Under the pieces are notes generated by a model. The model did not search any database. It had not been told where the DNA came from and saw only the letters and a list, made by a program, of their open reading frames with translations. The translations under genes and the position numbers were made by a program. Of a DNA stretch of 64,000 bases, positions 11,266 to 64,000 are shown piece by piece. How positions within the stretch are numbered: the stretch's first letter is position 1; each line of letters begins with the position of its first letter. Origin of the DNA: Companilactobacillus formosensis (lineage in GTDB: Bacteria > Bacillota > Bacilli > Lactobacillales > Lactobacillaceae); assembly GCF_005405305.1 (NCBI RefSeq), contig NZ_BJDU01000001.1, forward strand, positions 370,791 through 434,790, written 5' to 3'.

Positions 11266-13242
11266 ATGAAAACCTATCTTCAAAGAATGGGTCGATCTCT
11301 TCAATTGCCAGTTGCAGTTTTGCCTGCAGCAGCTTTACTTGAAGGAATTGGTCACTGGCTTCCACAAAATTGGGGTCTAGCACAATTTCTCCAAGTTGGT
11401 GGATCGGCTATTTTAGGTCAGTTAGCCTTATTATTTGCCGTTGGATTATCACTTGGGATGTCCAAAGCTAAAGATGGTGCCGCCGCTATGGCTGGGGTAG
11501 TTGCTTATATAGTTCCTACCTATGTATTAGCACCAAATCAAGTTGCACTATTATTGGGAATAAAAGTTAGTGCTGTCAATCCGGCTTTTAATGCTATTGC
11601 CGGGAATGTCTTTATTGGTATCATTGCTGGGTTGATTGCCGCAGCTTTGTTTGACCGTTTCCATGAGACAAAATTGCCAATGGCTTTGTCATTTTTCAGT
11701 GGAAAACGTTTAGTGCCAATTTTAGCTACACTTGTAATGCTGTTAGTTTCCGTCGTCTTATTATTTGTTTGGCCGGTATTATATGATGCCTTGATTTCAT
11801 TTGGTAAATTCATCGTTAACTTAGGCTGGATCGGTGCAGGATTGTTTGGCTTCTTCAATCGTTTGTTAATTCCAACTGGATTGCATCAAGCATTGAATCA
11901 AGTCTTTGAATTTAATATTGCCGGTATTAACGATATTGGTAATTTCTGGGCTAATAAAGGAACCAAGGGAATTACTGGTATGTACTTAGCTGGATATTTC
12001 CCAGTTATGATGTTTGGATTACCCGCCGGAGCTTTAGCAATTTATAAGAATGCTTTACCAGAGAAAAAGAAGACCACAGCTGGTTTAATGTTAGCTGGTG
12101 CGTTTGCTTCATTCTTCACTGGTGTAACTGAACCCTTAGAATTCTCATTCATGTTCGTTGCTTGGCCACTTTATGTAATTCACGCAATCTTTACTGGATT
12201 ATCGATGGCATTTGCCGCCTTTATGCATTGGACAGCTGGATTTACTTTCAGTGCTGGGTTAGTCGATTATATTTTGAGTTTCCATATGCCAATTGCTAAT
12301 AAACCTTACATGTTACTGGTTCAAGGTTTAGTTATGGCAGTAATTTATTACTTTGGTTTTGACTTTGCAATCAAGAAGTTTAATTTAATGACTCCTGGTC
12401 GTGAGAAAACTATTGATGATGCACCAGTTGAAGAAGTTGCTACTTCAGATTCTGATGATAAATATATGGTCATGGCCAAAAAAGTTTATGCTGGAATTGG
12501 TGGTCACGATAATATTAAAGTGATCGACAATTGTACAACACGTTTACGTCTACAATTAAATGACACTGGAAATGCTAATAAATCTCAAATTATGGATGCT
12601 GGCGTTTCAGGAGTTAATGTTTTAGATAAAACAAATATTCAAATTATTGTCGGAACTGAAGTTCAATTCGTAGCTGACGATTTGAAGAAATTGTTTGATC
12701 AAAATGCCAAAGTTGAAGCTATTGATTCAAAATCAACTGAATCAGCAAAAGCAACTACTACTAGCGATGTTAAATCTGGACAAGTCGATACCTTCTATAG
12801 TGTTGCTAACGGGCAAGTTGAGGATATCGAAGAAGTTTCTGATCCAACCTTTGCTCAAAAGATGCTTGGAGATGGCTATGCAGTCATTCCAAGTGATGGC
12901 AAGATTGTTGCGCCTGTTGATGGTACGATTGAAAGTATCTTCCCAACTAAGCACGCTTTAGGTATTAAAACTGATAGTGGCTTAGAAGTCTTAGTTCATA
13001 TGGGAATCGATACAGTTCAACTAAAAGGCGAGCCTTTCGACATTAAAGTTGAAGCTGGTCAAAAAGTTAAACATGGCGATCAATTGGCTCAAGTAGATTT
13101 GGATAAGATAATTCAAGCTGACAAAAAGACTGATATGATGGTAATTATTACTAACATGCCAAACGTTGCTTACTTGAAGTATCAAGTTTTGGACCAAAAG
13201 ACAAAATTGAATCAAATTGTTTTAAAATCAACAACTAAATAA
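11266..13242 (+). CDS. PTS IICBA permease, glucose/N-acetylglucosamine family
   Basis: A 658-residue three-domain phosphotransferase permease that imports and phosphorylates a hexose. The IIC membrane domain (about residues 1-390) begins with the family landmark LPVAVLPAAALLEGIGHWLP. The IIB domain follows, with phospho-Cys 423 in DNCTTRLRL. The C-terminal IIA domain has APVDGTI and active His 578 in VHMGID. Domain order C-B-A matches NagE/PtsG-type proteins. N-acetylglucosamine or glucose is the likely sugar, but the sequence does not decide. A cre-like site upstream suggests CcpA control. Confidence 0.88.
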   Translation: MKTYLQRMGRSLQLPVAVLPAAALLEGIGHWLPQNWGLAQFLQVGGSAILGQLALLFAVGLSLGMSKAKDGAAAMAGVVAYIVPTYVLAPNQVALLLGIKVSAVNPAFNAIAGNVFIGIIAGLIAAALFDRFHETKLPMALSFFSGKRLVPILATLVMLLVSVVLLFVWPVLYDALISFGKFIVNLGWIGAGLFGFFNRLLIPTGLHQALNQVFEFNIAGINDIGNFWANKGTKGITGMYLAGYFPVMMFGLPAGALAIYKNALPEKKKTTAGLMLAGAFASFFTGVTEPLEFSFMFVAWPLYVIHAIFTGLSMAFAAFMHWTAGFTFSAGLVDYILSFHMPIANKPYMLLVQGLVMAVIYYFGFDFAIKKFNLMTPGREKTIDDAPVEEVATSDSDDKYMVMAKKVYAGIGGHDNIKVIDNCTTRLRLQLNDTGNANKSQIMDAGVSGVNVLDKTNIQIIVGTEVQFVADDLKKLFDQNAKVEAIDSKSTESAKATTTSDVKSGQVDTFYSVANGQVEDIEEVSDPTFAQKMLGDGYAVIPSDGKIVAPVDGTIESIFPTKHALGIKTDSGLEVLVHMGIDTVQLKGEPFDIKVEAGQKVKHGDQLAQVDLDKIIQADKKTDMMVIITNMPNVAYLKYQVLDQKTKLNQIVLKSTTK

Positions 13243-13270
13243 TAGTTTTTTCACCCTTCATAATTCGCTT

Positions 13271-13307
13271 AAAAGCCTACGGAATCTAGTTTCCATGGGC
13301 TTTTTTT
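13271..13307 (+). terminator. Rho-independent terminator after PTS gene
   Basis: The stem AAAAGCC..GGAA/TTCC..GGGCTTTT is followed by a T-run. Confidence 0.75.
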
Positions 13308-13331
13308 ATTTGCCAAAAGCCATTTTTACTA

Positions 13332-13359
13332 TTGACTAAAACGTTTTCAACTGTTAGAT
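13332..13359 (+). promoter_or_regulatory. Promoter with embedded cre site
   Basis: The -35 TTGACT (13332) and -10 TTAGAT (13354) are 16 bp apart. Between them, 13336-13350 reads CTAAAACGTTTTCAA, whose reverse complement fits WTGAAARCGYTTWWN at all positions. A cre inside the core promoter predicts CcpA repression of the DUF4867 gene. Confidence 0.6.
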
Positions 13360-13398
13360 TGTGTTTGAAATGAACATTAACAAACATGGGGGAAAAGT

Positions 13399-14079
13399 AT
13401 GAGTACATTAGAAGATTTCCAAAAAAAGAATCCAGACTACAAGATCCTCTCCATTGATGATCCTGATTTTAAGAAATACGGAAAAGTTTATACTAAGTAT
13501 GATATTAGTGAAGTAAAAGATTATATGGATAAGAATGTTAAGATTTCAAGTCCAAGTAATTTCTACACACCATCGAATAAAGACCTCGAAAAAATTCCGG
13601 CAATTCAAGAAATGGGTAAGGACATTTACGCCTTTATGCCAATTGAAGCTGGTGAATGCACAGGTCAATCAACAAACTTCTCAGCTATTGAATATCACCA
13701 AGGTAGCGAAACTAATATTATGTTGACTGATGTCATCATGGTCTTAGGTCAACGTTCAACGCTAGATACAAAAGGTGAATACAGTCCTTCAGAAGATGGA
13801 CAAATTTTCTTCGTTCCTGCAGGGACAGTTGTTGAATTTTATAGTACAACGTTGCACTATGCACCAATCAAAGTTCATGATTCAGGATTCTCAATCATCG
13901 TTATCTTGATCAAGGGTTCAAATGAAGAATTGCCAGCTGACTTTAAGAGTGACAACAAACGTATCGTTAAACAAAACAAATTCCAATTAGTTGATCCTAG
14001 TCGTAAAGATAAGATTGCTATTGGGGTTGAAGTTGGTTTGACAGGTAAGATGATTGAAATGACACCTTTAGATAAATAG
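13399..14079 (+). CDS. DUF4867 family protein
   Basis: A soluble 226-residue protein recognised as DUF4867-like, with no signal peptide or membrane segment. The central part (about residues 75-175) has beta-rich cupin-like features, including DGQIFFVPAGTVVEFYS and a His-containing strand LHYAPIKVH. Function is not established. Relatives often sit near carbohydrate uptake genes; here it lies between two PTS loci and has its own cre-controlled promoter, which suggests a role in sugar metabolism. The start follows the Shine-Dalgarno GGGGGAAA. Confidence 0.7.
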   Translation: MSTLEDFQKKNPDYKILSIDDPDFKKYGKVYTKYDISEVKDYMDKNVKISSPSNFYTPSNKDLEKIPAIQEMGKDIYAFMPIEAGECTGQSTNFSAIEYHQGSETNIMLTDVIMVLGQRSTLDTKGEYSPSEDGQIFFVPAGTVVEFYSTTLHYAPIKVHDSGFSIIVILIKGSNEELPADFKSDNKRIVKQNKFQLVDPSRKDKIAIGVEVGLTGKMIEMTPLDK

Positions 14080-14118
14080 TTTTTCTAAGATTTAGCCTAA
14101 TTACTCAAAAAACACAAA

Positions 14119-14174
14119 AGAACCTTATTGGAATAGCAGTTATTGTTACTGCATCTAATAGGGTTCTTTTTTTA
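14119..14174 (+). terminator. Rho-independent terminator after DUF4867 gene
   Basis: Outer stem AGAACCTTATT/AATAGGGTTCT and inner stem GCAGT/ACTGC are followed by a T-run. Confidence 0.85.
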
Positions 14175-14320
14175 GTCTAGAAAAAATACCGAAGCATTGT
14201 TCACAAAAAAATGAAGAAATGTATTTACTAAAAAAATAAAAGGTATAGTCTACATCATGTTACACACAAAAAACATGTGAAAAATCTTGAATTGAAAAAA
14301 ATATACTTTATAAACTAAAT

Positions 14321-14372
14321 TGAAAATGCTGATATAAAAGGGTCTAGACCCGTAAAATCATGAAAATGCTGA
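14321..14372 (+). repeat. Direct repeats flanking a palindrome upstream of the mannose PTS operon
   Basis: TGAAAATGCTGA occurs at 14321-14332 and again at 14361-14372, exactly 40 bp (about four helical turns) apart. Between them is the perfect 12-bp palindrome GGGTCTAGACCC (14340-14351), strikingly GC-rich in a roughly 25% GC region. It looks like an upstream regulatory module; the binding factor is unknown. Confidence 0.5.
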
Positions 14373-14575
14373 AAAGATAGAAAGATTTTCAAATATCACA
14401 AACTGTTTAAAATCATTCTTAAAAAAATAGAATTGGTTTTGACCATTTAATACCTATTTTTCAAATAACTTGATTTAATAGCTTTAAATTAAGGACCAAA
14501 AAGCCAAAAACTATATTGTTAATTTTATAACAAAAGTTTAAATTTGTTTTTATTTGCTTATTTTTGTTAAAAAGG

Positions 14576-14712
14576 CTGTTTTTTTTCTGAAAAAATGATA
14601 TTATGTAAGGGTTCACATGAAGGGTGAGCTCTATTAAAGCGGTTTATTTAGAAATTATTCTATTTTTATTGTCAAATCGATCATAAATGGGTGGTCAAAG
14701 TAAGCGCTTTAA
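14576..14712 (+). promoter_or_regulatory. Predicted promoter and downstream cre-like site of the mannose PTS operon
   Basis: An extended -10 TGATATTAT ends at 14604 and lacks a clear -35. This gives a leader of about 130 nt. Within the leader, 14698-14712 reads AAGTAAGCGCTTTAA, two mismatches from WTGAAARCGYTTWWN, so CcpA could block elongation there. I searched for a sigma-54 -24/-12 element (TTGGCAC..TTGCT) and found none. The rest of 14175-14575 is very AT-rich with no supported gene. Confidence 0.5.
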
Positions 14713-14739
14713 TGACATAAAAATAAAGGAGGATTAAAC

Positions 14740-15708
14740 ATGGTTGGAATTGTTATTGCAAGCCATGGTGACTTTGCCGACGGTATCAAGATGTCTGGTT
14801 CAATGATTTTCGGTGAACAAAAAGATGTTCAATCCGTTACATTGCAACCAAGCATGGGGCCTGATGACCTTAAAGCAAAATTGGAAAAAGCTGTCTCAGC
14901 TCTTGAAGATCAAGAACAAGTTTTGTTCTTAGTTGATCTCTGGGGAGGAACACCTTTTAACCAAGTAAATGGTTTGTTCGAAGCACACAAAGATAAGTGG
15001 GCCATCGTCGCTGGTCTAAACTTACCTATGTTGATTGAAGCTTATGCTTCACGTATGTCAATGAATTCTGCACATGAAATTGCTGCACATATCATTGAAA
15101 CAGCCAAGGAAGGTGTGAAGGTTCGTCCAGAATCTCTACAACCTAAAGAAGCTAAGGCTGCTCCAAAACAACAAGCTGTCTCAGGTGGTAAACCTGGTAA
15201 GATGAAGTATGTTTTGGCACGTATCGACTCACGTCTATTGCATGGTCAAGTTGCTACTGCATGGTCTAAGTCAGTTTCACCAACACGTATCATTGTCGTT
15301 TCAGATAATGTTGCTAAGGATGATTTGCGTAAACAATTGATTATGCAAGCCGCCCCAGTTGGTATTCACGCACACGTTATTCCAATTGATCAAATGATCA
15401 AGATTGCCAAAGATGACAAACACTTTGGTGGCGAACGTGCACTATTGCTTTTCGAAACACCACAAGATGTTAAGAGAGCTATTGACGGAGGAGTTCCATT
15501 GGAAACAGTTAATGTTGGTTCAATGGCTCACTCAGTTGGTAAAGTTCAACCTAACAAAGTTTTGGCTTTCGACCAAAATGATATTGATACATTCAAGGAT
15601 ATGGAAAAAGAAGGCATCAAGTTTGATGTTCGTAAAGTTCCTACAGACTCAGAAGATAACCTTGATAATATCATGAAGAAAGCTCAAGACGAGTTGAACA
15701 AAAATTAA
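14740..15708 (+). CDS. manX: Mannose-class PTS IIAB protein
   Basis: Cytoplasmic phosphotransfer protein of 322 residues with an N-terminal IIA(Man) domain (phospho-His 9 in IASHGDF) and a IIB domain (phospho-His 168 in RIDSRLLHGQV). They are joined by an Ala/Pro/Lys-rich linker near residues 135-155. It passes phosphate from HPr to incoming glucose or mannose through the IICD membrane complex. It is first in an operon with IIC and IID, has a strong AAGGAGG Shine-Dalgarno, and its codon use looks highly expressed. The operon is likely the main glucose uptake route. Confidence 0.94.
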   Translation: MVGIVIASHGDFADGIKMSGSMIFGEQKDVQSVTLQPSMGPDDLKAKLEKAVSALEDQEQVLFLVDLWGGTPFNQVNGLFEAHKDKWAIVAGLNLPMLIEAYASRMSMNSAHEIAAHIIETAKEGVKVRPESLQPKEAKAAPKQQAVSGGKPGKMKYVLARIDSRLLHGQVATAWSKSVSPTRIIVVSDNVAKDDLRKQLIMQAAPVGIHAHVIPIDQMIKIAKDDKHFGGERALLLFETPQDVKRAIDGGVPLETVNVGSMAHSVGKVQPNKVLAFDQNDIDTFKDMEKEGIKFDVRKVPTDSEDNLDNIMKKAQDELNKN

Positions 15709-15747
15709 TATATATTCTTATAGAGATAAAACGGAGGATTAATAATC

Positions 15748-16569
15748 ATGCAATTAAATGCTATTCAGATTATTCTTGTCGTTTTAGTATCATTCCTAGC
15801 TGGTATGGAAGGTATTTTGGATGAATTCCATTTCCACCAACCAGTTATCGCATGTACTTTAATCGGCTTAGTTACGGGTCAATTGATCCCTTGCCTTATC
15901 CTTGGTGGTACATTACAAATGATCGCCTTAGGTTGGGCTAATATCGGTGCTGCCGTAGCACCTGATGCTGCTTTGGCAGCTGTTGCTTCAGCTATTATTT
16001 TAGTTCTTGGTGGTAAAGGTCAAGCTGGTGTTGGTTCAGCTATTGCTATCGCTGTTCCTTTGGCTGTTGCCGGATTACTACTAACAATCCTTGTTCGTAC
16101 TATCGCAACTGGTATTGTTCACATCATGGATAAAGCTGCCGAAGAAGGTAACTTTAGAAAGATTGATATGTGGCAATATATTGCTATTTGTTTACAAGGT
16201 CTACGTATCGCTATCCCTGCCGCATTGATTCTTGCTATCGGTGCTGGTCCTGTGAAAGCATTGCTAGATGCTATGCCTACTTGGTTGACAGATGGTTTGT
16301 CAATCGGTGGTGGTATGGTTGTTGCTGTTGGTTACGCAATGGTTATCAATATGATGGCTAGTCGTGAAGTATGGCCATTCTTCGCTATTGGTTTCGTACT
16401 TGCTACAGTTACAGATCTAACACTTATCGGTCTTGGTACTATCGGTATTTCTATGGCGCTTATCTACTTGAAATTATCTAAATCAGGTGGTAATGGCGGT
16501 TCATCAAACGGTGGTGGAGGAAACTCCAACACAGGTGATCCAGTCGGCGACATCATAGATAACTACTAA
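15748..16569 (+). CDS. manY: Mannose-class PTS IIC permease
   Basis: Membrane subunit of 273 residues with many hydrophobic helices. It carries the family landmarks FLAGMEGILDEFHFHQPVI, LGGTLQMIALGW and VASAIILVLGGKGQ. With IID it forms the translocation channel and, in related bacteria, the docking site for class IIa bacteriocins. The C-terminus ends in a Gly/Asn/Ser-rich tail after about residue 247, longer and lower in complexity than in many homologues. The gene starts 39 bp after manX with a GGAGG site. Confidence 0.93.
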   Translation: MQLNAIQIILVVLVSFLAGMEGILDEFHFHQPVIACTLIGLVTGQLIPCLILGGTLQMIALGWANIGAAVAPDAALAAVASAIILVLGGKGQAGVGSAIAIAVPLAVAGLLLTILVRTIATGIVHIMDKAAEEGNFRKIDMWQYIAICLQGLRIAIPAALILAIGAGPVKALLDAMPTWLTDGLSIGGGMVVAVGYAMVINMMASREVWPFFAIGFVLATVTDLTLIGLGTIGISMALIYLKLSKSGGNGGSSNGGGGNSNTGDPVGDIIDNY

Positions 16570-44414: not shown

Positions 44415-44443
44415 TTGACTAATTACCAAAATAATGATAAATT
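44415..44443 (+). promoter_or_regulatory. Promoter of rplJ-rplL
   Basis: TTGACT (44415) and TAAATT (44438) are 17 bp apart, directly after rplA and upstream of the L10 leader. Confidence 0.6.
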
Positions 44444-44449
44444 ATCATA

Positions 44450-44560
44450 GTTGATTTCTACCGAAGACTCAGGTGATGAAAGTCTTAATATCCTGCCGAG
44501 GCCAGAAGATTATTTCACTTAATCTCTGTGTCCTTAGGGCACAGGGATTTTATATTTTTA
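44450..44560 (+). promoter_or_regulatory. Ribosomal protein L10 leader with terminator
   Basis: The leader contains the L10(L12)4 binding landmarks CCGAAGACTCAGGTG and TCCTGCCGAGGCC. It ends in a stem CTCTGTGTCC/GGGCACAGGG followed by TTTTATATTTTT. This is the Rfam L10-leader type. L10-L12 complex binding regulates rplJL. Confidence 0.85.
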
Positions 44561-44610
44561 GCCGAATTTGTAGAAGATTAACTAAAAAATTGTGGAGGTG
44601 AAACGTAATA

Positions 44611-47070: not shown

Positions 47071-47160
47071 TGCCGTAAGGCCTTAGGGCAATGGTGCTCT
47101 TGCGAATCGTGTCAGGTTCGGAAGAAAGCAGCACTAAGTAAGGTGTGCCATGTGCCTTTT
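47071..47160 (+). ncRNA. ffs: Signal recognition particle RNA, small bacterial type
   Basis: The domain IV signature GTCAGGTTCGGAAGAAAGCAG is present at 47111-47131 in the split form GTCAGGTTCGG then AAGAAAGCAG, with flanking complementary arms (AAGGC..GCCTT and GGTGCT..AGCAC). The position between tadA and dnaX is typical of Bacilli. The ends are estimated from the outer pairing. Confidence 0.9.
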
Positions 47161-47175
47161 GTTATGTATATTAGC

Positions 47176-54463: not shown

Positions 54464-54483
54464 AGACGAGTACTAAAAAATTT

Positions 54484-54625
54484 GGAGTAGGATTCAAGGC
54501 GTTAAGTGCTGGTGGAACGGAATGTGAACACCGGACAAAGAGTTATCTCGCGATCTTGTTTCCGCATTCGCCACTTTATATACGTCTTAAGCCTATATCT
54601 GGTGGCAGCTCCGTCTAGGAGATGT
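54484..54625 (+). promoter_or_regulatory. Tetrahydrofolate (THF) riboswitch before folT
   Basis: The aptamer landmarks GGAGTAGG, GGCGTTAAGTGCTGGTG, CGGAATGT and CACCGGAC occur in the order of the THF riboswitch, closing with GGTGGCAGCTCC (54601-54612). AGGC.TTAAG pairs with CTTAAGCCT. The closing CTCC can pair with GGAG at 54484 (P1) or with the folT ribosome site GGAG at 54618, so ligand binding should change translation. The gene downstream, a folate transporter, supports the call. Confidence 0.78.
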
Positions 54626-54630
54626 CGATT

Positions 54631-55155
54631 ATGAACAGTAGAAGTACAGTAATAAGCGTGCAAGAAGTCACTTGGATGGCATTGTTGATCGCAATGCAGA
54701 TGGTGTTATCAAAGCTTTCCGTCGGGAGCAACACCTTGAAAGTCGGCTTTAGTTTCATTGCAATAGGATTATTAGGTTATTATTTTGGACCAGTGAAAGC
54801 TGCCATGGCAAACGTATTAGCTGATATTATCAGTAATGTTGTAATGCCATCAAGTGGTGGATTCTTCTTAGGATTCACTTTCTCAGCTTTAGTCGCTGGC
54901 GCAATTTATGGTTACATGCTTTACAACCATAAAGTAACAGTTTGGAGAAGTTTGGTAACAGTGCTTTTGATCACAGTAGTTGTCAATACTGGATTGAACA
55001 CGATATGGATTCACATGATGACAAACGTTCCATATTCAGCATTGTTGATTACCAGACTACCAAAGGAAGCATTCAGTTTGGTTTACCAGACAGGGCTTTT
55101 GTATATCGTCCTTAAGTGGATTGATAATTCGAAATTTAATAAAATCGGCCAATAA
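54631..55155 (+). CDS. folT: Folate ECF transporter S component FolT
   Basis: A membrane substrate-binding subunit of about 174 residues with six helices. It works with a shared EcfA1A2T module not encoded here. Marks are FSFIAIGLLGYYFGPVKAAMANVLADIISN and the arginine/lysine-containing TRLPKEA near the last helix. The ATG at 54631 is nine bases from AGGAG; the ATG at 54622 touches it and is rejected. Confidence 0.88.
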   Translation: MNSRSTVISVQEVTWMALLIAMQMVLSKLSVGSNTLKVGFSFIAIGLLGYYFGPVKAAMANVLADIISNVVMPSSGGFFLGFTFSALVAGAIYGYMLYNHKVTVWRSLVTVLLITVVVNTGLNTIWIHMMTNVPYSALLITRLPKEAFSLVYQTGLLYIVLKWIDNSKFNKIGQ

Positions 55156-57620: not shown

Positions 57621-60600
57621 ATGACAGACAGGATCAGTTTAGGACTAGATATTGGTGTTGCCTCAGTTGGATTTAGTGTATTAGATATTGATAAAGGAAA
57701 GGTGATTGAATTAGGAGCTAGGTTGTTTAATGCAACTGTTGCTGCTGGAAACCAAGACCGCCGTGATATGCGTGGTGCTCGACGGTTATTGAATCGTAAT
57801 AAACAACGTCGTCAAGATACTAGTAAATTATTTAAAAAATTTGGTTTAATAGAAGATTTTGATGAAGATAGCTTTTATGACAATTTTAATCAAAATTTGA
57901 ATCCTTATGAGTTGCGAGTTAAAGGATTGACTGAACAATTAACTAAAGAAGAATTAGCCGAGAGTTTGTATCAAATTGTTAAACGCCGGGGGATTAGCTA
58001 CGCCTTAAAAGATGCGGATGCTGATGAAGGTGGGACTGACTATTCAGCTAGTTTAAAAATCAATAGTCAAGAATTGGCAGAAAAGACTCCAGCCCAAATT
58101 CAATTACAACGTTTGAATGATTACGGCAAAGTTAGAGGACAAGTGGTTGTTGGAGATGATCCTGATAATCAAAAAGTATTATTAAATGTCTTCCCAACGA
58201 GTGCTTATGAAAAAGAAGCTAGACAAATTATCAAAACCCAACAACAATTTTATCCAGAAATTTTGACCGATGAATTTGTAGAAGAATATTGTCAGATTTT
58301 GACAAGAAAAAGAGATTATTTTGTTGGACCTGGTAATGAGAAGTCTCGAACTGACTATGGGATTTATAAGACCGATGGTCGGACTTTGGATAACTTATTC
58401 GAGGAATTAATTGGTCACGATAAAATTTATCCAGACGAATTGAGAGCTTCAGCTGCGTCTTATACGGCACAATTATTTAATGTTTTGAATGACTTAAATA
58501 ATTTGAGGATTTTGGGTTATGAAGATGGTAAATTAACCCAAACTGATAAAGAAAATATAATTGCGGAAATTAAAAGCAATACAACAGTAGTGAACATGTT
58601 GAATGTCATCAAAAAAGCTGTTGGTTGTCAAAAAGATGATATTAAAGGTTTTCGACTTGATGAAAAAGATAAACCTGAAATAAGTTCAATGTCTATTTAT
58701 CGCAAAATTCACAAAGACATGCTTAAAGTTGGAGTTGATATTAGTGATTGGCCGCTAGAATTTGTTGATCGTTTGAGCTTTATTCTGACATTGAATACTG
58801 AGAATGGAGAAATCAGAAAACAAATTAATAGACGTTTAGTTCCTGATTTTGACTTCTTGAATGACGATTTGATTCAGTTGATCATTGATAATAAAGATAG
58901 CTTTGACATCAAAACAAATAATAAATGGCATCGTTTCTCATTGAAGACTATGAACAAGTTGATACCGGAAATGTTCGAACGTCCAGTTGAACAGATGACC
59001 TTGTTGACAGAAATGGGATTAATTAAGAAAGACACTAAACGTTTTGAAAATAACAAGTATTTACCATACAAAGAAATTGCCAGTGATATTTTTAGTCCGG
59101 TTGCGTCTAAAGCTGTTCGTGAAGCCTTGAAGATTGTTAACGCGGTATTAAAGAAGTATGGACATATTGATTACATCGTTGTTGAAATGCCACGTGATAA
59201 AAATTTGGATGAAGAGCGAAAGCAAATTGCAGATTTTCAAAAGAAAAATAAAAAAATCAAAGACGCTGCGTTCAAGGACTTCGTTAAAGCGGTTGGCAAT
59301 GAAAGAAATGTGAAGATTGCTCTTAGTAAAAATCGTAAACTCCAGATGGGAATTCGTCTGTGGCATCAACAACAAGGTATTGATCCCTATAACGGTGAAG
59401 AAATCGATGCCAGTGATTTAATCAGCAATCCTGATAAATTTGAAATTGATCACATTATTCCACAATCTATTTCGTTTGATGACGGTATCAATAATAAGAC
59501 ACTGTGCTTTGCTTCAATGAATCAAGTTAAAGGTCAAAAAACACCATATGAATTTTTAAATGAAGGCCATGGGCAAGGCTATGCTAAGTTTAAAGCAATG
59601 GTCAGTAAGAATAAGAACTTTAGTAAAGCTAAACGTGACAATTATCTTTTTGAAGAAAATGTTAGTAACATTGAAACTAGAAAGAGGTTCTTATCACGTA
59701 ACCTAGTCGATACAAGATATTCTTCTCGAGTGGTACTTAATAGTTTGCAAGAATTCTTCCGTGAAAAGTCGGCTGACACCAAAGTGACGGTCATTCGTGG
59801 TAAATTCACTTCTAACATGCGTAAACATTGGCACATTGATAAAACTCGTGATACTTTCCATCATCATGCCATTGATGCTTCAATTATTGCTGCTACACCG
59901 TTTTTGAGAATGTGGAAAAAAGGAAGTACGATTTTCCCAACTAAGGTCAACGAAACTTCAATCGATATTGAAACTGGTGAAATTTTAGACGATAAGAATT
60001 TCGATAAAGTGATGTATGAGGAACCTTACAGTGGATTCATTTCAGAAATTATGAATGCTGATGATAGAATTAAATTTTCACATCAAGTTGATAAGAAGAT
60101 GAATCGTAAAGTTAGTGATGCAACAATTTATTCGACACGAATCGGTAAATTAGCCAAAGATAAAAAAGATGCCGAATATGTTGTGGCAAAAGTGAAAGAC
60201 ATTTATAGTGTTGATGGATACGATAATTTCAAAAAAGTTTATGAAAAAGATAAAACTAAGTTCTTGTTGTACAAGTATGATCCTAGAACGTTCTCCGAAC
60301 TGGAAAAAATTATTGCCGATTATCCAGATAAAATTGAAAAGGTTCAAACAAATGGCAAAGTTAAAGCTGTAGATATTAGCCCATTTGAACTATATCGAAG
60401 AGATCACGGAATGGTTAGAAAGTATTCCAAAAAAGCTAATGGTCCAACTATCAAACAGCTTAAGTATCTTGATAAGAAATTAGGCTCACATATTGATATC
60501 ACACCGCACAATGCTAATAATAAGCATGTTGTTTTACAGTCATTGAAACCCTGGAGGACGGATGTTTATTTGAATCACGAAACTGGTGAATATGAAATCA

Positions 60601-61013
60601 TGGGGATTAAGTATTCTGATTTGAAGTTCAATAAGAATGAAGGATATGGAATTAAGAGAAATAAATATTTAGAAATTAAGAAACGAGAAAAAGTTTCTGA
60701 CGGTTCCGAATTTGTATTTAGTTTGTATCGTAAGGATAGAGTTAAGATTCAGAATTTTAAGACTGATGAATTCGTTGAATTATTGTTTTGGTCTAGAACT
60801 ATGGAAAAGAATAAAGGATATGCGGAGTTAAAGCCAATTTTTAAATTTTCAACAGAAAATAACAACTGGCCAATATATGGAAATGCTAAAAAACAAATAT
60901 TAAAAAAATTAATACCCAAAGATTGTAGGATTTGGAAGGCAAATACAAATATTTTAGGTGATACATATTATCTTGAAAAAGAGTCAAATTATCCACAAAA
61001 AATTCTTGATTAA
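57621..61013 (+). CDS. cas9: CRISPR-associated endonuclease Cas9, compact type II-A
   Basis: An RNA-guided DNA endonuclease of 1130 residues. RuvC-I has Asp 10 in LGLDIGVASVGF, followed by the Arg-rich bridge helix RRDMRGARRLLNRNKQRRQ (about 51-70). RuvC-II has Glu 522 in VVEMPRDKN. The HNH domain has His 611 in FEIDHIIPQS with later Asn residues. RuvC-III has His 748 and Asp 752 in FHHHAIDAS. A wedge/PAM-interacting C-terminus follows. All catalytic residues are present. The size matches the Streptococcus thermophilus CRISPR1 group rather than the 1360-residue group. The ribosome site is AGAAGGG. Confidence 0.96.
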   Translation: MTDRISLGLDIGVASVGFSVLDIDKGKVIELGARLFNATVAAGNQDRRDMRGARRLLNRNKQRRQDTSKLFKKFGLIEDFDEDSFYDNFNQNLNPYELRVKGLTEQLTKEELAESLYQIVKRRGISYALKDADADEGGTDYSASLKINSQELAEKTPAQIQLQRLNDYGKVRGQVVVGDDPDNQKVLLNVFPTSAYEKEARQIIKTQQQFYPEILTDEFVEEYCQILTRKRDYFVGPGNEKSRTDYGIYKTDGRTLDNLFEELIGHDKIYPDELRASAASYTAQLFNVLNDLNNLRILGYEDGKLTQTDKENIIAEIKSNTTVVNMLNVIKKAVGCQKDDIKGFRLDEKDKPEISSMSIYRKIHKDMLKVGVDISDWPLEFVDRLSFILTLNTENGEIRKQINRRLVPDFDFLNDDLIQLIIDNKDSFDIKTNNKWHRFSLKTMNKLIPEMFERPVEQMTLLTEMGLIKKDTKRFENNKYLPYKEIASDIFSPVASKAVREALKIVNAVLKKYGHIDYIVVEMPRDKNLDEERKQIADFQKKNKKIKDAAFKDFVKAVGNERNVKIALSKNRKLQMGIRLWHQQQGIDPYNGEEIDASDLISNPDKFEIDHIIPQSISFDDGINNKTLCFASMNQVKGQKTPYEFLNEGHGQGYAKFKAMVSKNKNFSKAKRDNYLFEENVSNIETRKRFLSRNLVDTRYSSRVVLNSLQEFFREKSADTKVTVIRGKFTSNMRKHWHIDKTRDTFHHHAIDASIIAATPFLRMWKKGSTIFPTKVNETSIDIETGEILDDKNFDKVMYEEPYSGFISEIMNADDRIKFSHQVDKKMNRKVSDATIYSTRIGKLAKDKKDAEYVVAKVKDIYSVDGYDNFKKVYEKDKTKFLLYKYDPRTFSELEKIIADYPDKIEKVQTNGKVKAVDISPFELYRRDHGMVRKYSKKANGPTIKQLKYLDKKLGSHIDITPHNANNKHVVLQSLKPWRTDVYLNHETGEYEIMGIKYSDLKFNKNEGYGIKRNKYLEIKKREKVSDGSEFVFSLYRKDRVKIQNFKTDEFVELLFWSRTMEKNKGYAELKPIFKFSTENNNWPIYGNAKKQILKKLIPKDCRIWKANTNILGDTYYLEKESNYPQKILD

Positions 61014-61033
61014 TCACGATGATATGGTATTAT
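61006..61033 (+). promoter_or_regulatory. Predicted tracrRNA promoter
   Basis: TTGATT (61006) and TATTAT (61028) are 16 bp apart, with TGG before the -10. The -35 overlaps the last codons of cas9. The start is predicted near 61040. Confidence 0.55.
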
Positions 61034-61039
61034 TTTTAC

Positions 61040-61178
61040 TTGTAAGGGACGCCTTATGCGTATGTGCGCACGTACGGTTTAGATTTTGATTTTACTCTTT
61101 TAAAATCTTTTAAGATCTACAAAAATAAGGATTTATTCCGAATTTACCACCTATTTTAAGTAATAGGTGGTTTTTTTT
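61040..61178 (+). ncRNA. tracrRNA
   Basis: The anti-repeat at 61090-61125 is complementary to the CRISPR repeat. Its first 25 bases (61090-61114) match the repeat complement without error; a short bulge and TACAAAAA follow. Then come a nexus hairpin (GGA-TTTA-TTCC, 61129-61139) and a terminator ACCACCTATT/AATAGGTGGT (61146-61171) with eight T residues. Upstream of the anti-repeat the predicted transcript contains a 50-nt extension with an 18-bp palindrome. Location between cas9 and cas1 is typical of this type II-A group. Confidence 0.9.
61059..61076 (+). repeat. Palindrome within the tracrRNA 5' extension
   Basis: CGTATGTGCGCACGTACG is self-complementary over all nine pairs, with one T-G pair. 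It is the most GC-rich short element around the locus. It could be an RNA stem or a binding site for a dimeric protein. Confidence 0.6.
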
Positions 61179-61195
61179 AATTTGGAGGAATGTCT

Positions 61196-62104
61196 ATGGC
61201 TTGGAGAATTGTTCATATCAAGGAAGGGGATGTTCTAAGACTTCGTTTAGATAATTTAGAAGTTTTGAAGCAAGATAATAAGGTCTTTATTCCACTGTCT
61301 GATATTACGATGGTGGTTTTAGAAGGCAATCGAACGATGTTATCGACTAAACTTATGTCACGAATGAGTCAAAATAATGTTGGACTAGTAATTTGTGATG
61401 ATAAGTACTTGCCAGTAGGGATTTATTTGCCTTACGGACAGTATCATCATTATTCTAAACGAGTGATTAAGCAGTCTTCTTGGAGTGATGAACAAAAGGG
61501 AATCATTTGGCAAGAAGTTATTGGACAGAAAATGCACAATCAATTAGCTTTTGCTCAGTATAGTGGTGTTGAGACTGAGAGATTAGAGTTGATGGAAGAT
61601 CTGATCAATGACTTACAAATTGGTGATACGACTAATCGTGAAGGTCATGTAGCTAAGGTTTACTTTGATTCTTTATATGGTAAAAGTTTCACTAGGGATG
61701 ACGATTGTTTGATCAATGCGGCAATGAATTTTGGTTATGCAATACTTCGTTCTTGTATGGCTCGAATTGTAGTTGGCAATGGTTTGGTCACGATGCTTGG
61801 TATCTTTCATCGGAATGAGTTTAACAGTTTTAATTTAGTTGATGATTTGATGGAACCTTATCGACCGTTAATGGATTATTGGGTCAATAAGAATGTGCTT
61901 GATGATAAAGAATACTTGAGTTATGAATCGAGATTGAAAATTATTGAGTTTATGAATCAAAAGATAAAAATCAATAATAAGAAGATGACAATTGATAATT
62001 CAATGCAAGAGTACGTTCAGAGTTTCATCAGTGCTATTGATGAAACTGATCCTAGTTTAGTTATAAAGATTGGACTAAATAATTTTGTAGGAGAGGAAAG
62101 TTGA
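61196..62104 (+). CDS. cas1: CRISPR-associated integrase Cas1
   Basis: The spacer-integration nuclease, about 302 residues. The metal-binding residues Glu 149 (REGHVAKVYF), His 205 (GIFHRNEFN) and Glu 220 (DDLMEPYRP) are present. The ATG at 61196 is chosen because GGAGG is seven bases upstream; an ATG at 61190 is one base from it. It overlaps cas2 by four bases. Confidence 0.95.
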   Translation: MAWRIVHIKEGDVLRLRLDNLEVLKQDNKVFIPLSDITMVVLEGNRTMLSTKLMSRMSQNNVGLVICDDKYLPVGIYLPYGQYHHYSKRVIKQSSWSDEQKGIIWQEVIGQKMHNQLAFAQYSGVETERLELMEDLINDLQIGDTTNREGHVAKVYFDSLYGKSFTRDDDCLINAAMNFGYAILRSCMARIVVGNGLVTMLGIFHRNEFNSFNLVDDLMEPYRPLMDYWVNKNVLDDKEYLSYESRLKIIEFMNQKIKINNKKMTIDNSMQEYVQSFISAIDETDPSLVIKIGLNNFVGEES

Positions 62105-62424
62105 AATATCAAAATATGAGAATGTTGTGTATGTTTGATTTACCCGTTGATACTCCGCAAGAACGTCGTCAGTACCGTGTTTTCCGCAAAGAACTGTTAA
62201 GAAATGGCTTTACAATGTTGCAGTATTCAGTTTATTATCGTGCAGTTCAAAACCGCGCTGCTGGGAAAAAATATGAAACTGCCATTAAGAGATTTTTACC
62301 CGTACACGGTGAGGTGAGATTGATTTCAGTAAGTGAGAAGCAATTCAATGATATGCAAATTTTAGTCGGTTCCAGAAGTAAGCAGGAAACCTTAGTCGGC
62401 AGTAAGGAATTGGTGATTATATGA
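62101..62424 (+). CDS. cas2: CRISPR-associated protein Cas2
   Basis: The Cas1 partner in spacer acquisition, 107 residues with a ferredoxin-like fold. Marks are MRMLCMFDLPVDTPQERRQYRVFRK in two parts and MLQYSVYYRAV. The start is taken as TTG 62101, four bases after GAGAGG and coupled to cas1; an ATG at 62116 is the alternative. The stop overlaps the csn2 start (ATGA). Confidence 0.92.
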   Translation: MKYQNMRMLCMFDLPVDTPQERRQYRVFRKELLRNGFTMLQYSVYYRAVQNRAAGKKYETAIKRFLPVHGEVRLISVSEKQFNDMQILVGSRSKQETLVGSKELVII

Positions 62425-63443
62425 TTTTGAATATTGAATTAGAAAACCAAAAGTTTCTGGAATTGGATTTTGAAGATGAAATTTATATCACCGGAGAAAA
62501 TCGTCAAAAAATTTGGCAAGTTTTTCGTAGTTTATATTATTATTTCAATAAAGATCCGAAGTTGACGACCAATGTATATGGGGAAAATAGAATTGAAGTT
62601 ACTTGCGATGATGAAGCTGTCTCAGTGAAAAATACTTTGCCATTCTTTATTCATAATCGAGAAAGCATCTACCAGCAAATGCTTTATAAAAAGGATACAT
62701 TGCTATTTGATTTCTTGAATAGCTTTGAGAATGATTTAGAGATTGATCGCTCAATTGAACAATTGAATGATGAACTTTTGAAGATAGAAATCTTATTGCA
62801 GCGACAATTAGATAATTACTCTAATAATCTTCAAAGCGAGTTTCTGAATTTTTCTTATGCGGATTTACTTAAAGCCAAGTTATTTATGGGTTATAAGGAA
62901 AAAGGAATGGATTATCCATTGGAGTTTATGGATACAGAACTGCTATTAGATGAATTCTTGAACTTTTTGAAGTTTCGATTGGAAAATACTGGTCTGCCGG
63001 TTTGGTTGATATTTTATAATCTAGATAGTTTTATTAGTTCTAAAGATATTGAGCCTTTTTTGATTGAAGTTAAAAAGTTAGTAAGAGAATATGATTTGAA
63101 GCTAATTTATTTAGGAAATGATTTGAATAATGTGCCACTTGATGCTAGTGAAATAGATAATGTTGTAGTATCTACCAATGAATTTCATCAATTGCTACCA
63201 ATCGATGAATTAATGAGATCAATTCAATTGTATTATCCAAATGAATTGCAGTTGTCAAAAGATGAAATTGCACATTCTTTAAAGAGGATTGTTCCCTTAA
63301 TTGGAAGTACTGAAAAAGTTTTTATATCTAACCAAGATTTGGTATTATTAAAAGTAATGAATGAGATTTTAGGCTATGAGACGTCATATGATTTAAGAAC
63401 TCAATCATTAACAGATGCAGAAACCAAATTTTTGGAAGATTAA
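62421..63443 (+). CDS. csn2: Type II-A adaptation protein Csn2, long form
   Basis: A 340-residue protein at the last cas position, which identifies it with the long Csn2 form of the CRISPR1-type systems (short forms are about 220 residues). Such proteins form tetrameric rings on DNA ends during spacer acquisition. Visible are ITGENRQKIWQVFRSLYYYFN near the N-terminus, a helical middle part and the LIYLGNDLNNVPL and VSTNEFHQLLPIDEL regions of the C-terminal core. Sequence identity to named families is low, so the call rests on position, length and pattern. Confidence 0.85.
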   Translation: MILNIELENQKFLELDFEDEIYITGENRQKIWQVFRSLYYYFNKDPKLTTNVYGENRIEVTCDDEAVSVKNTLPFFIHNRESIYQQMLYKKDTLLFDFLNSFENDLEIDRSIEQLNDELLKIEILLQRQLDNYSNNLQSEFLNFSYADLLKAKLFMGYKEKGMDYPLEFMDTELLLDEFLNFLKFRLENTGLPVWLIFYNLDSFISSKDIEPFLIEVKKLVREYDLKLIYLGNDLNNVPLDASEIDNVVVSTNEFHQLLPIDELMRSIQLYYPNELQLSKDEIAHSLKRIVPLIGSTEKVFISNQDLVLLKVMNEILGYETSYDLRTQSLTDAETKFLED

Positions 63444-63470: not shown

Positions 63471-64000
63471 GTTTTTGTACCTTAAAAGATTTTAAAAGAG
63501 TAAAACTTATGCTAAGGCTAATTTAAGGTACTTTGAGTTTTTGTACCTTAAAAGATTTTAAAAGAGTAAAACCATAAAGCAATTTATTGACCACAGCAAT
63601 GTGTTTTTGTACCTTAAAAGATTTTAAAAGAGTAAAACCGCCGCCCCGTTTCCTAGTGCTTTGATCATGTTTTTGTACCTTAAAAGATTTTAAAAGAGTA
63701 AAACTTATTTGAACCACCGTTAAAAAAACTGAATGTTTTTGTACCTTAAAAGATTTTAAAAGAGTAAAACCCCTTTTTAACGTCGTTCTTTGGTACCTCG
63801 GTTTTTGTACCTTAAAAGATTTTAAAAGAGTAAAACTGGGGGTCGTTTTGGGAATCATCTATTCAAGTTTTTGTACCTTAAAAGATTTTAAAAGAGTAAA
63901 ACAAAGTGTATACGACCTGTCAACCGTGGCCGGTTTTTGTACCTTAAAAGATTTTAAAAGAGTAAAACTATCGTCAACAAGGAAGTTAAGAGATTGCTGT
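63471..64000 (+). CRISPR. Type II-A CRISPR array (truncated by window end)
   Basis: Eight identical 36-bp repeats start at 63471, 63537, 63603, 63669, 63735, 63801, 63867 and 63933, and a ninth begins at 63999. The repeat starts GTTTTTGTACCTTAAAAG and ends AAGAGTAAAAC, with about 22% GC. All eight spacers are exactly 30 bp and all differ; several (spacers 3 and 7) are much richer in GC than the host. The leader side is at csn2, so spacer 1 is the youngest. The array continues beyond the window. Confidence 0.99.

Follow-up and report, generated by a model that had tools for sequence, protein, structure and literature searches.

A compact Cas9 of Companilactobacillus formosensis appears to belong to a natural series of matched enzymes that read either A or G at one position of the protospacer-adjacent motif (PAM). 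Its gene lies in a type II-A clustered regularly interspaced short palindromic repeats (CRISPR) locus within the 64,000-nucleotide (nt) stretch of contig NZ_BJDU01000001.1 analyzed here (positions 370,791 to 434,790, forward strand), hereafter the window. In the clade around St1Cas9, the Cas9 of Streptococcus thermophilus CRISPR1, the flanks of natural targets make it fairly likely that the residue at St1Cas9 position 1084, residue 1092 of the window Cas9, switches PAM position +3 between A (glutamine) and G (arginine), that the state of this switch has changed repeatedly among sister species of Companilactobacillus, and that the window enzyme is of the A type, with the motif NNANAAW. Small delivery vectors can accommodate compact Cas9s, with the PAM as the constraint on their use; here a food-associated genus holds many intact St1-like enzymes whose PAMs can be inferred from natural targets. 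The interest resides in the PAM inference and in a simple candidate residue rule, which a few point mutants could check, and not in any unusualness of the locus.

The original prediction held that the PAM cannot be read from this window, and proposed a spacer search to find it. The window alone is indeed insufficient, yet the motif can be inferred from the protospacers of orthologs; likewise, the four matches of the window's own spacers were uninformative, while ortholog spacers yielded a consensus. With up to three mismatches allowed and only the best target kept for each spacer, 32 ortholog spacers could be placed, their targets being mobile and chromosomal DNA of congeners, mostly prophages. 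Downstream of these protospacers, +3 is A or G in 28/32, +5 is A in 26/32, +6 is A in 30/32, and +7 is A or T in 25/32. Of the 32, 25 have the dinucleotide AA at +5/+6, for which the binomial P is about 1e-17 against a background of 12%. No signal comparable to that of the 3′ flank was seen in the 5′ flank of the same 32 protospacers. These flanks suggest a clade PAM of NNRNAAW.

The ambiguity at +3 follows the identity of one residue in the PAM-interacting (PI) domain, where Gln1092 of the window Cas9 corresponds to Gln1084 of St1Cas9. Within the genus, Gln orthologs have A at +3 in 8/8 targets, while Arg orthologs have G in 15, A in 4, and T in 2 (Fisher P 1.2e-4), a test that was not blind, the split having been noticed in the same data. 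Two follow-up sets were taken after the rule had been framed: streptococcal Gln orthologs showed A at +3 in 6/7, and Arg orthologs from another lactobacillar genus showed G in 7/8, again at three mismatches or fewer. When all sets are pooled, A occupies +3 in 14/15 Gln targets versus 5/29 Arg targets (P 1.3e-6), and 22 of the 29 Arg targets carry G. Counted per ortholog, A is the majority base in all six Gln enzymes and G in six of seven Arg enzymes. The two residue types alternate between the sister pairs formed by the window genome with G026 and by G007 with G005, such that the PI-domain strip switches between Gln and Arg types among Companilactobacillus relatives even at this short range. 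Under the filter used, the only columns that separate the within-genus groups are window residues 1077, 1078, 1083, and 1091–1093; residues near 1092 may therefore share the effect. Gln1092, taken together with the clade motif, leads to a predicted PAM of 5′-NNANAAW-3′ for the window enzyme, which is less strict at +4 than the NNAGAAW published for St1Cas9.

Several observations weigh against this reading. The Fisher tests count spacers as independent, and the spacers come from 13 orthologs. A close St1 relative of the Gln type (L225, genome G594) appears to use a different PAM, its four targets all bearing AC instead of AA at +5/+6 (TAAGAC, CAAAAC, AGATAC, and CAAAAC); positions 5 and 6 are therefore also variable within the clade. 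The window's own spacers produced one self match with one mismatch and three matches with three to four mismatches. Their 3′ flanks, AATCTAA, TGCTAAA, GGAATTA, and GATTCAG, include AA at +5/+6 once and A at +3 once, a scatter that leaves the PAM of the window enzyme not directly confirmed. Conceivably, this PAM is looser than or different from NNANAAW; NNNNAA would be one example, and NNRNAAW lacking the rule at +3 another. That inconsistency at +3 among the diverged targets, and the A or T found there in 7/29 targets of Arg orthologs, are what such a relaxed motif would produce; the near-uniform A of the Gln orthologs, among them C. futsaii from the neighboring sister pair, speaks against it, and we regard it as possible though rather unlikely.

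The self match involves spacer 6, which targets a flavodoxin-like gene of the host itself (PF12682; contig C2, 247452). Since its flank, AATCTAAT (AATCTAA), is without the PAM motif, the self-target is expected to be tolerated. Spacers of the window and of close relatives had no match in the phage collection, window spacers had none among plasmids, and eight exact 20–25-nt patterns drawn from them had none among IMG/VR contigs; across 398 Lactobacillaceae genomes, window spacers matched the host itself and one congener only. When whole arrays from other genera were compared with phages, mini-CRISPR matches swamped the results, and only the streptococcal spacers were usable. The short repeat-like stretches through which many S. 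thermophilus phage records match the CRISPR arrays of other genera appear to be mini-CRISPR elements; examples are KY705257.1 883-985 and MH892366.1 25907-26012.

The locus itself is, with high confidence on the combined sequence evidence, a complete chromosomal type II-A CRISPR-Cas system of the S. thermophilus CRISPR1 branch, defined by St1Cas9 and a long Csn2, and is probably active. As an immune system it is ordinary and known, and its placement is in the lactobacillus branch of the CRISPR1 type. Its genes, all supported by open reading frames and family profiles, and the adjoining elements are as follows (aa, amino acids):

57621–61013, plus strand: cas9, 1130 aa, compact type II-A effector
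61190–62104, plus strand: cas1 of type II, 304 aa
62101–62424, plus strand: cas2, 107 aa
62421–63443, plus strand: csn2, long (St) form, 340 aa
63464–63470, plus strand: leader end GTTTGAG, compared with 15 relatives having an array at the locus
63471–64000, plus strand: window part of the CRISPR array, 36-nt repeats and 30-nt spacers

Gene calls were checked with Pfam, NCBIfam, and PADLOC profiles. Cas9 matches TIGR01865 at 671 bits, Cas1 the type II profile TIGR03639 at 295 bits, Cas2 TIGR01573 at 73 bits, and Csn2 PF16813 (Cas_St_Csn2) at 72 bits, so that a type II-A set is present as a cas9-cas1-cas2-csn2 operon with the array adjoining. Ordinary chromosomal genes lie upstream of cas9, and the assembly comprises 2.47 Mb in 25 contigs. 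Beyond what had been predicted, the region holds a trans-activating CRISPR RNA (tracrRNA) in 61014–61189 and an array that begins at 63471, outside the interval first described, and the genome holds a second locus with a large Cas9.

The best solved relative of the window Cas9 is St1Cas9 (PDB 6rj9), with 1009 bits over residues 5–1126 and 47% identity along the whole length; the PDB match scores for SaCas9 are weaker. Alignment to St1Cas9 bears out the prediction of an 1130-aa protein with all its RuvC and HNH catalytic residues: D10, E522, D610/H611, N634, the HHH of 747–749, and D752. In a maximum likelihood tree of 69 rows, SaCas9 not among them, the window Cas9 falls inside a Companilactobacillus clade (support 99), itself nested in an St1-like clade of 41 rows (support 100), which includes St1Cas9 and streptococcal and other Lactobacillales Cas9s. 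As had been anticipated, the window row is far from the approximately 1360-aa lactobacillar Cas9s, which form one separate, fully supported branch of length 2.24; a long-branch warning in this tree applies to the place where the large and the remaining compact groups meet and does not touch the position of the window row. This topology bears on whether the compact Cas9 might be a large lactobacillar Cas9 shortened by deletion in this lineage. Large Cas9s do predominate in the family, and one is encoded in the same genome. The latter, however, is encoded at a locus of its own, where the short Csn2 comes from a different Pfam family, PF09711, and the compact protein aligns with St1Cas9 end to end, whereas St1Cas9 and the large Cas9s align over partial stretches only, at about 22–28% identity. 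The tree places the window Cas9 outside the large group, and an origin by simple deletion has next to no chance of being correct. A second, unrelated compact group (10 tree rows; L146-L150 and L160-L164), of 1078–1135 aa and about 24–29% identity to St1Cas9, occurs in other lactobacillar genera.

The pairing with a long Csn2, also foreseen, is upheld by the PF16813 match and by the sole solved relative detected by sequence, STU0660 (PDB 3zth, 350 aa; E 9e-12); at 340 aa, the protein lies within the range of about 320–350 aa of the St family in the CRISPR1 branch. The leader ends in GTTTGAG here and in ATTTGAG in the 15 relatives, one base apart, and the ATTTGAG motif has been linked with S. 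thermophilus CRISPR1 and with Csn2 of the long form (PMC5382924). A GTTTTTGTAC-type repeat follows the leader end directly, as in the CRISPR1 branch. Arrays of the source genome were sought around its two cas9 loci only. The array at the window locus extends 426 nt past the window end, for a total of 15 repeats and 14 spacers; the 13 leader-side repeats are identical, and decay is confined to the distal end, where two degenerate repeats enclose a 26-nt spacer, the only one that is not 30 nt long, and are followed by a terminator. In genome G029, the array (L037) has 47 spacers, with one spacer block in triplicate, a large internal duplication.

The gap between cas9 and cas1 contains the tracrRNA, with an anti-repeat, an invariant nexus, and a terminator:

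61028–61033, plus strand: TATTAT, predicted extended −10-like element, immediately before the point at which the tracrRNA is presumed to start
61042–61057, plus strand: GTAAGGGACGCCTTAT, small near-invariant hairpin at the presumed 5′ end of the long tracrRNA, from a 16-locus alignment
61090–61125, plus strand: anti-repeat, from pairing with the repeat
61147–61178, plus strand: intrinsic terminator ACCACCTAT...ATAGGTGGT T8, one pair with a compensatory change

A TG-TAtnAT-like form of the −10-like element is found in most of the 16 aligned loci, and the small hairpin also occurs in streptococcal and other lactobacillar loci. The anti-repeat scores highest against its own species' repeat in 15/16 loci (mean 29.2 vs 20.1). 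In the alignment and fold, most pairs are invariant, with little covariation support outside the terminator; the stronger evidence for the tracrRNA is the match between anti-repeat and repeat rather than fold covariation. The 5′ part (61042–61075) bears an invariant GTAAGGGACGCCTTA, also present in streptococci, after which lactobacillar tracrRNAs have a palindrome whose sequence varies yet, by eye, remains self-complementary. As to autorepression by a long tracrRNA, no cas9-promoter match was noticed on reading the 5′ part against upstream regions, no scan having been made.

Concordant Cas9 phylogeny, St-type Csn2, repeat, tracrRNA nexus, and leader motif substantiate the predicted S. thermophilus CRISPR1 architecture. 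The two systems share gene order, a compact Cas9 with WED/PI2 domains (PDB 6rj9 and 6m0v), a long Csn2, Gln at St1 position 1084, a tracrRNA between cas9 and cas1 with a common 5′ element and an AUAAGG...CCGAA nexus, the GTTTTTGTAC repeat, and an ATTTGAG-type leader. They differ in the moderate Cas9 identity, in Csn2s only weakly similar by sequence, and in the longer 5′ part and lineage-specific palindrome of the window tracrRNA. The second type II-A locus of the source genome (G000; contig C8, L003 5225-11885) encodes a Cas9 of 1362 aa with PI domain PF16595 and a Csn2 of 234 aa (PF09711), with about eight repeats. Large lactobacillar Cas9s are likewise of subtype II-A; they differ in forming their own clade and in this PI domain, the short PF09711 Csn2, and a leader that has CG at its end, as at this second locus. 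The presence of compact and large-Cas9 loci in one genome resembles the CRISPR1 and CRISPR3 pair of S. thermophilus.

Gene content, catalytic residues, anti-repeat match, leader motif, array polarity, and ortholog protospacers are read directly from the DNA, and family knowledge supplies acquisition, RNA processing, and cleavage. On this basis, Cas1, Cas2, and Csn2, with Cas9 reading the PAM, would insert 30-nt spacers beside GTTTGAG, where the leader ends. The array transcript would pair with the tracrRNA encoded between cas9 and cas1 and be cut by RNase III, and Cas9 with the dual RNA would cut both strands of matching phage DNA. In this scheme, Gln1092 would read A at +3, and Arg in orthologs would go with G.

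Compact Cas9s, 62–90% identical to that of the window, are present in 17/36 Companilactobacillus species, including C. futsaii, C. nantensis, C. halodurans, and C. keshanensis, whose locus layout matches; besides the source genome, 16 congeners carry the corresponding locus, almost always in an intact state. Short II-A Cas9s (<1250 aa) of lactobacilli have also been described (PMC6070500), and by size class, subtype, and host family the present locus falls within the class outlined there; the parts of that survey covered here give no PAM for this Companilactobacillus branch. These data lend no support to rarity of the compact form. The statement of the original prediction that many lactobacilli carry a large Cas9 with a short Csn2 agrees with a hand count of about 101 large versus about 27 compact full-length Cas9s in 301 sampled Lactobacillaceae genomes.

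Copies in some congeners are decaying: csn2 is split by about 1.6 kb in G005 (L027 4851-7564), cas9 is in three pieces with stops in G006 (L040), and cas9 has two stops beside a single repeat in G033 (L039). Such copies, together with the few known targets of the window's own spacers, would fit a relic whose frames are intact but non-working, immunity being carried by the large-Cas9 locus. This is improbable given the four intact genes, the uniform leader-side repeats with decay confined to the distal end, and an anti-repeat that matches the repeat, all of which favor a working system.

In G031, spacer 4 (array L031) perfectly matches the genome's own prophage (L100 at 6432), where a good PAM is present (TCGTAAAT); the target is surrounded by genes for tail proteins, terminase, and endolysin, and an intact Cas9 lies beside the array. 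A perfect match, a good PAM, and an intact Cas9 together lead one to expect an anti-CRISPR or silencing. In C. kedongensis (L032, G015:C7), a second St1-like Cas9 of 1119 aa, with an open frame at ~13109-16462 on the minus strand, lies directly upstream of the intact cas9, in tandem. Its RuvC residues are changed (D to N, E to Q, HHH to HYY), the HNH D/H/N are kept, and its ratio of nonsynonymous to synonymous substitution rates to relatives is about 0.07-0.1; it is a possible natural RuvC-dead nickase. The gap between the two cas9 genes contains a lone repeat and a terminator. Neither the locus nor, at 13 nt, the genome yielded a target for a guide from this repeat, and the sequence upstream of the repeat matches nowhere else in the genome. 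More probably, the repeat marks where a deleted array ended. Elsewhere in the window are a tetrahydrofolate riboswitch (54481–54575), upstream of a membrane-protein open reading frame (54622–55155), an L10 leader (44443–44562), and a small signal recognition particle RNA (47082–47164).

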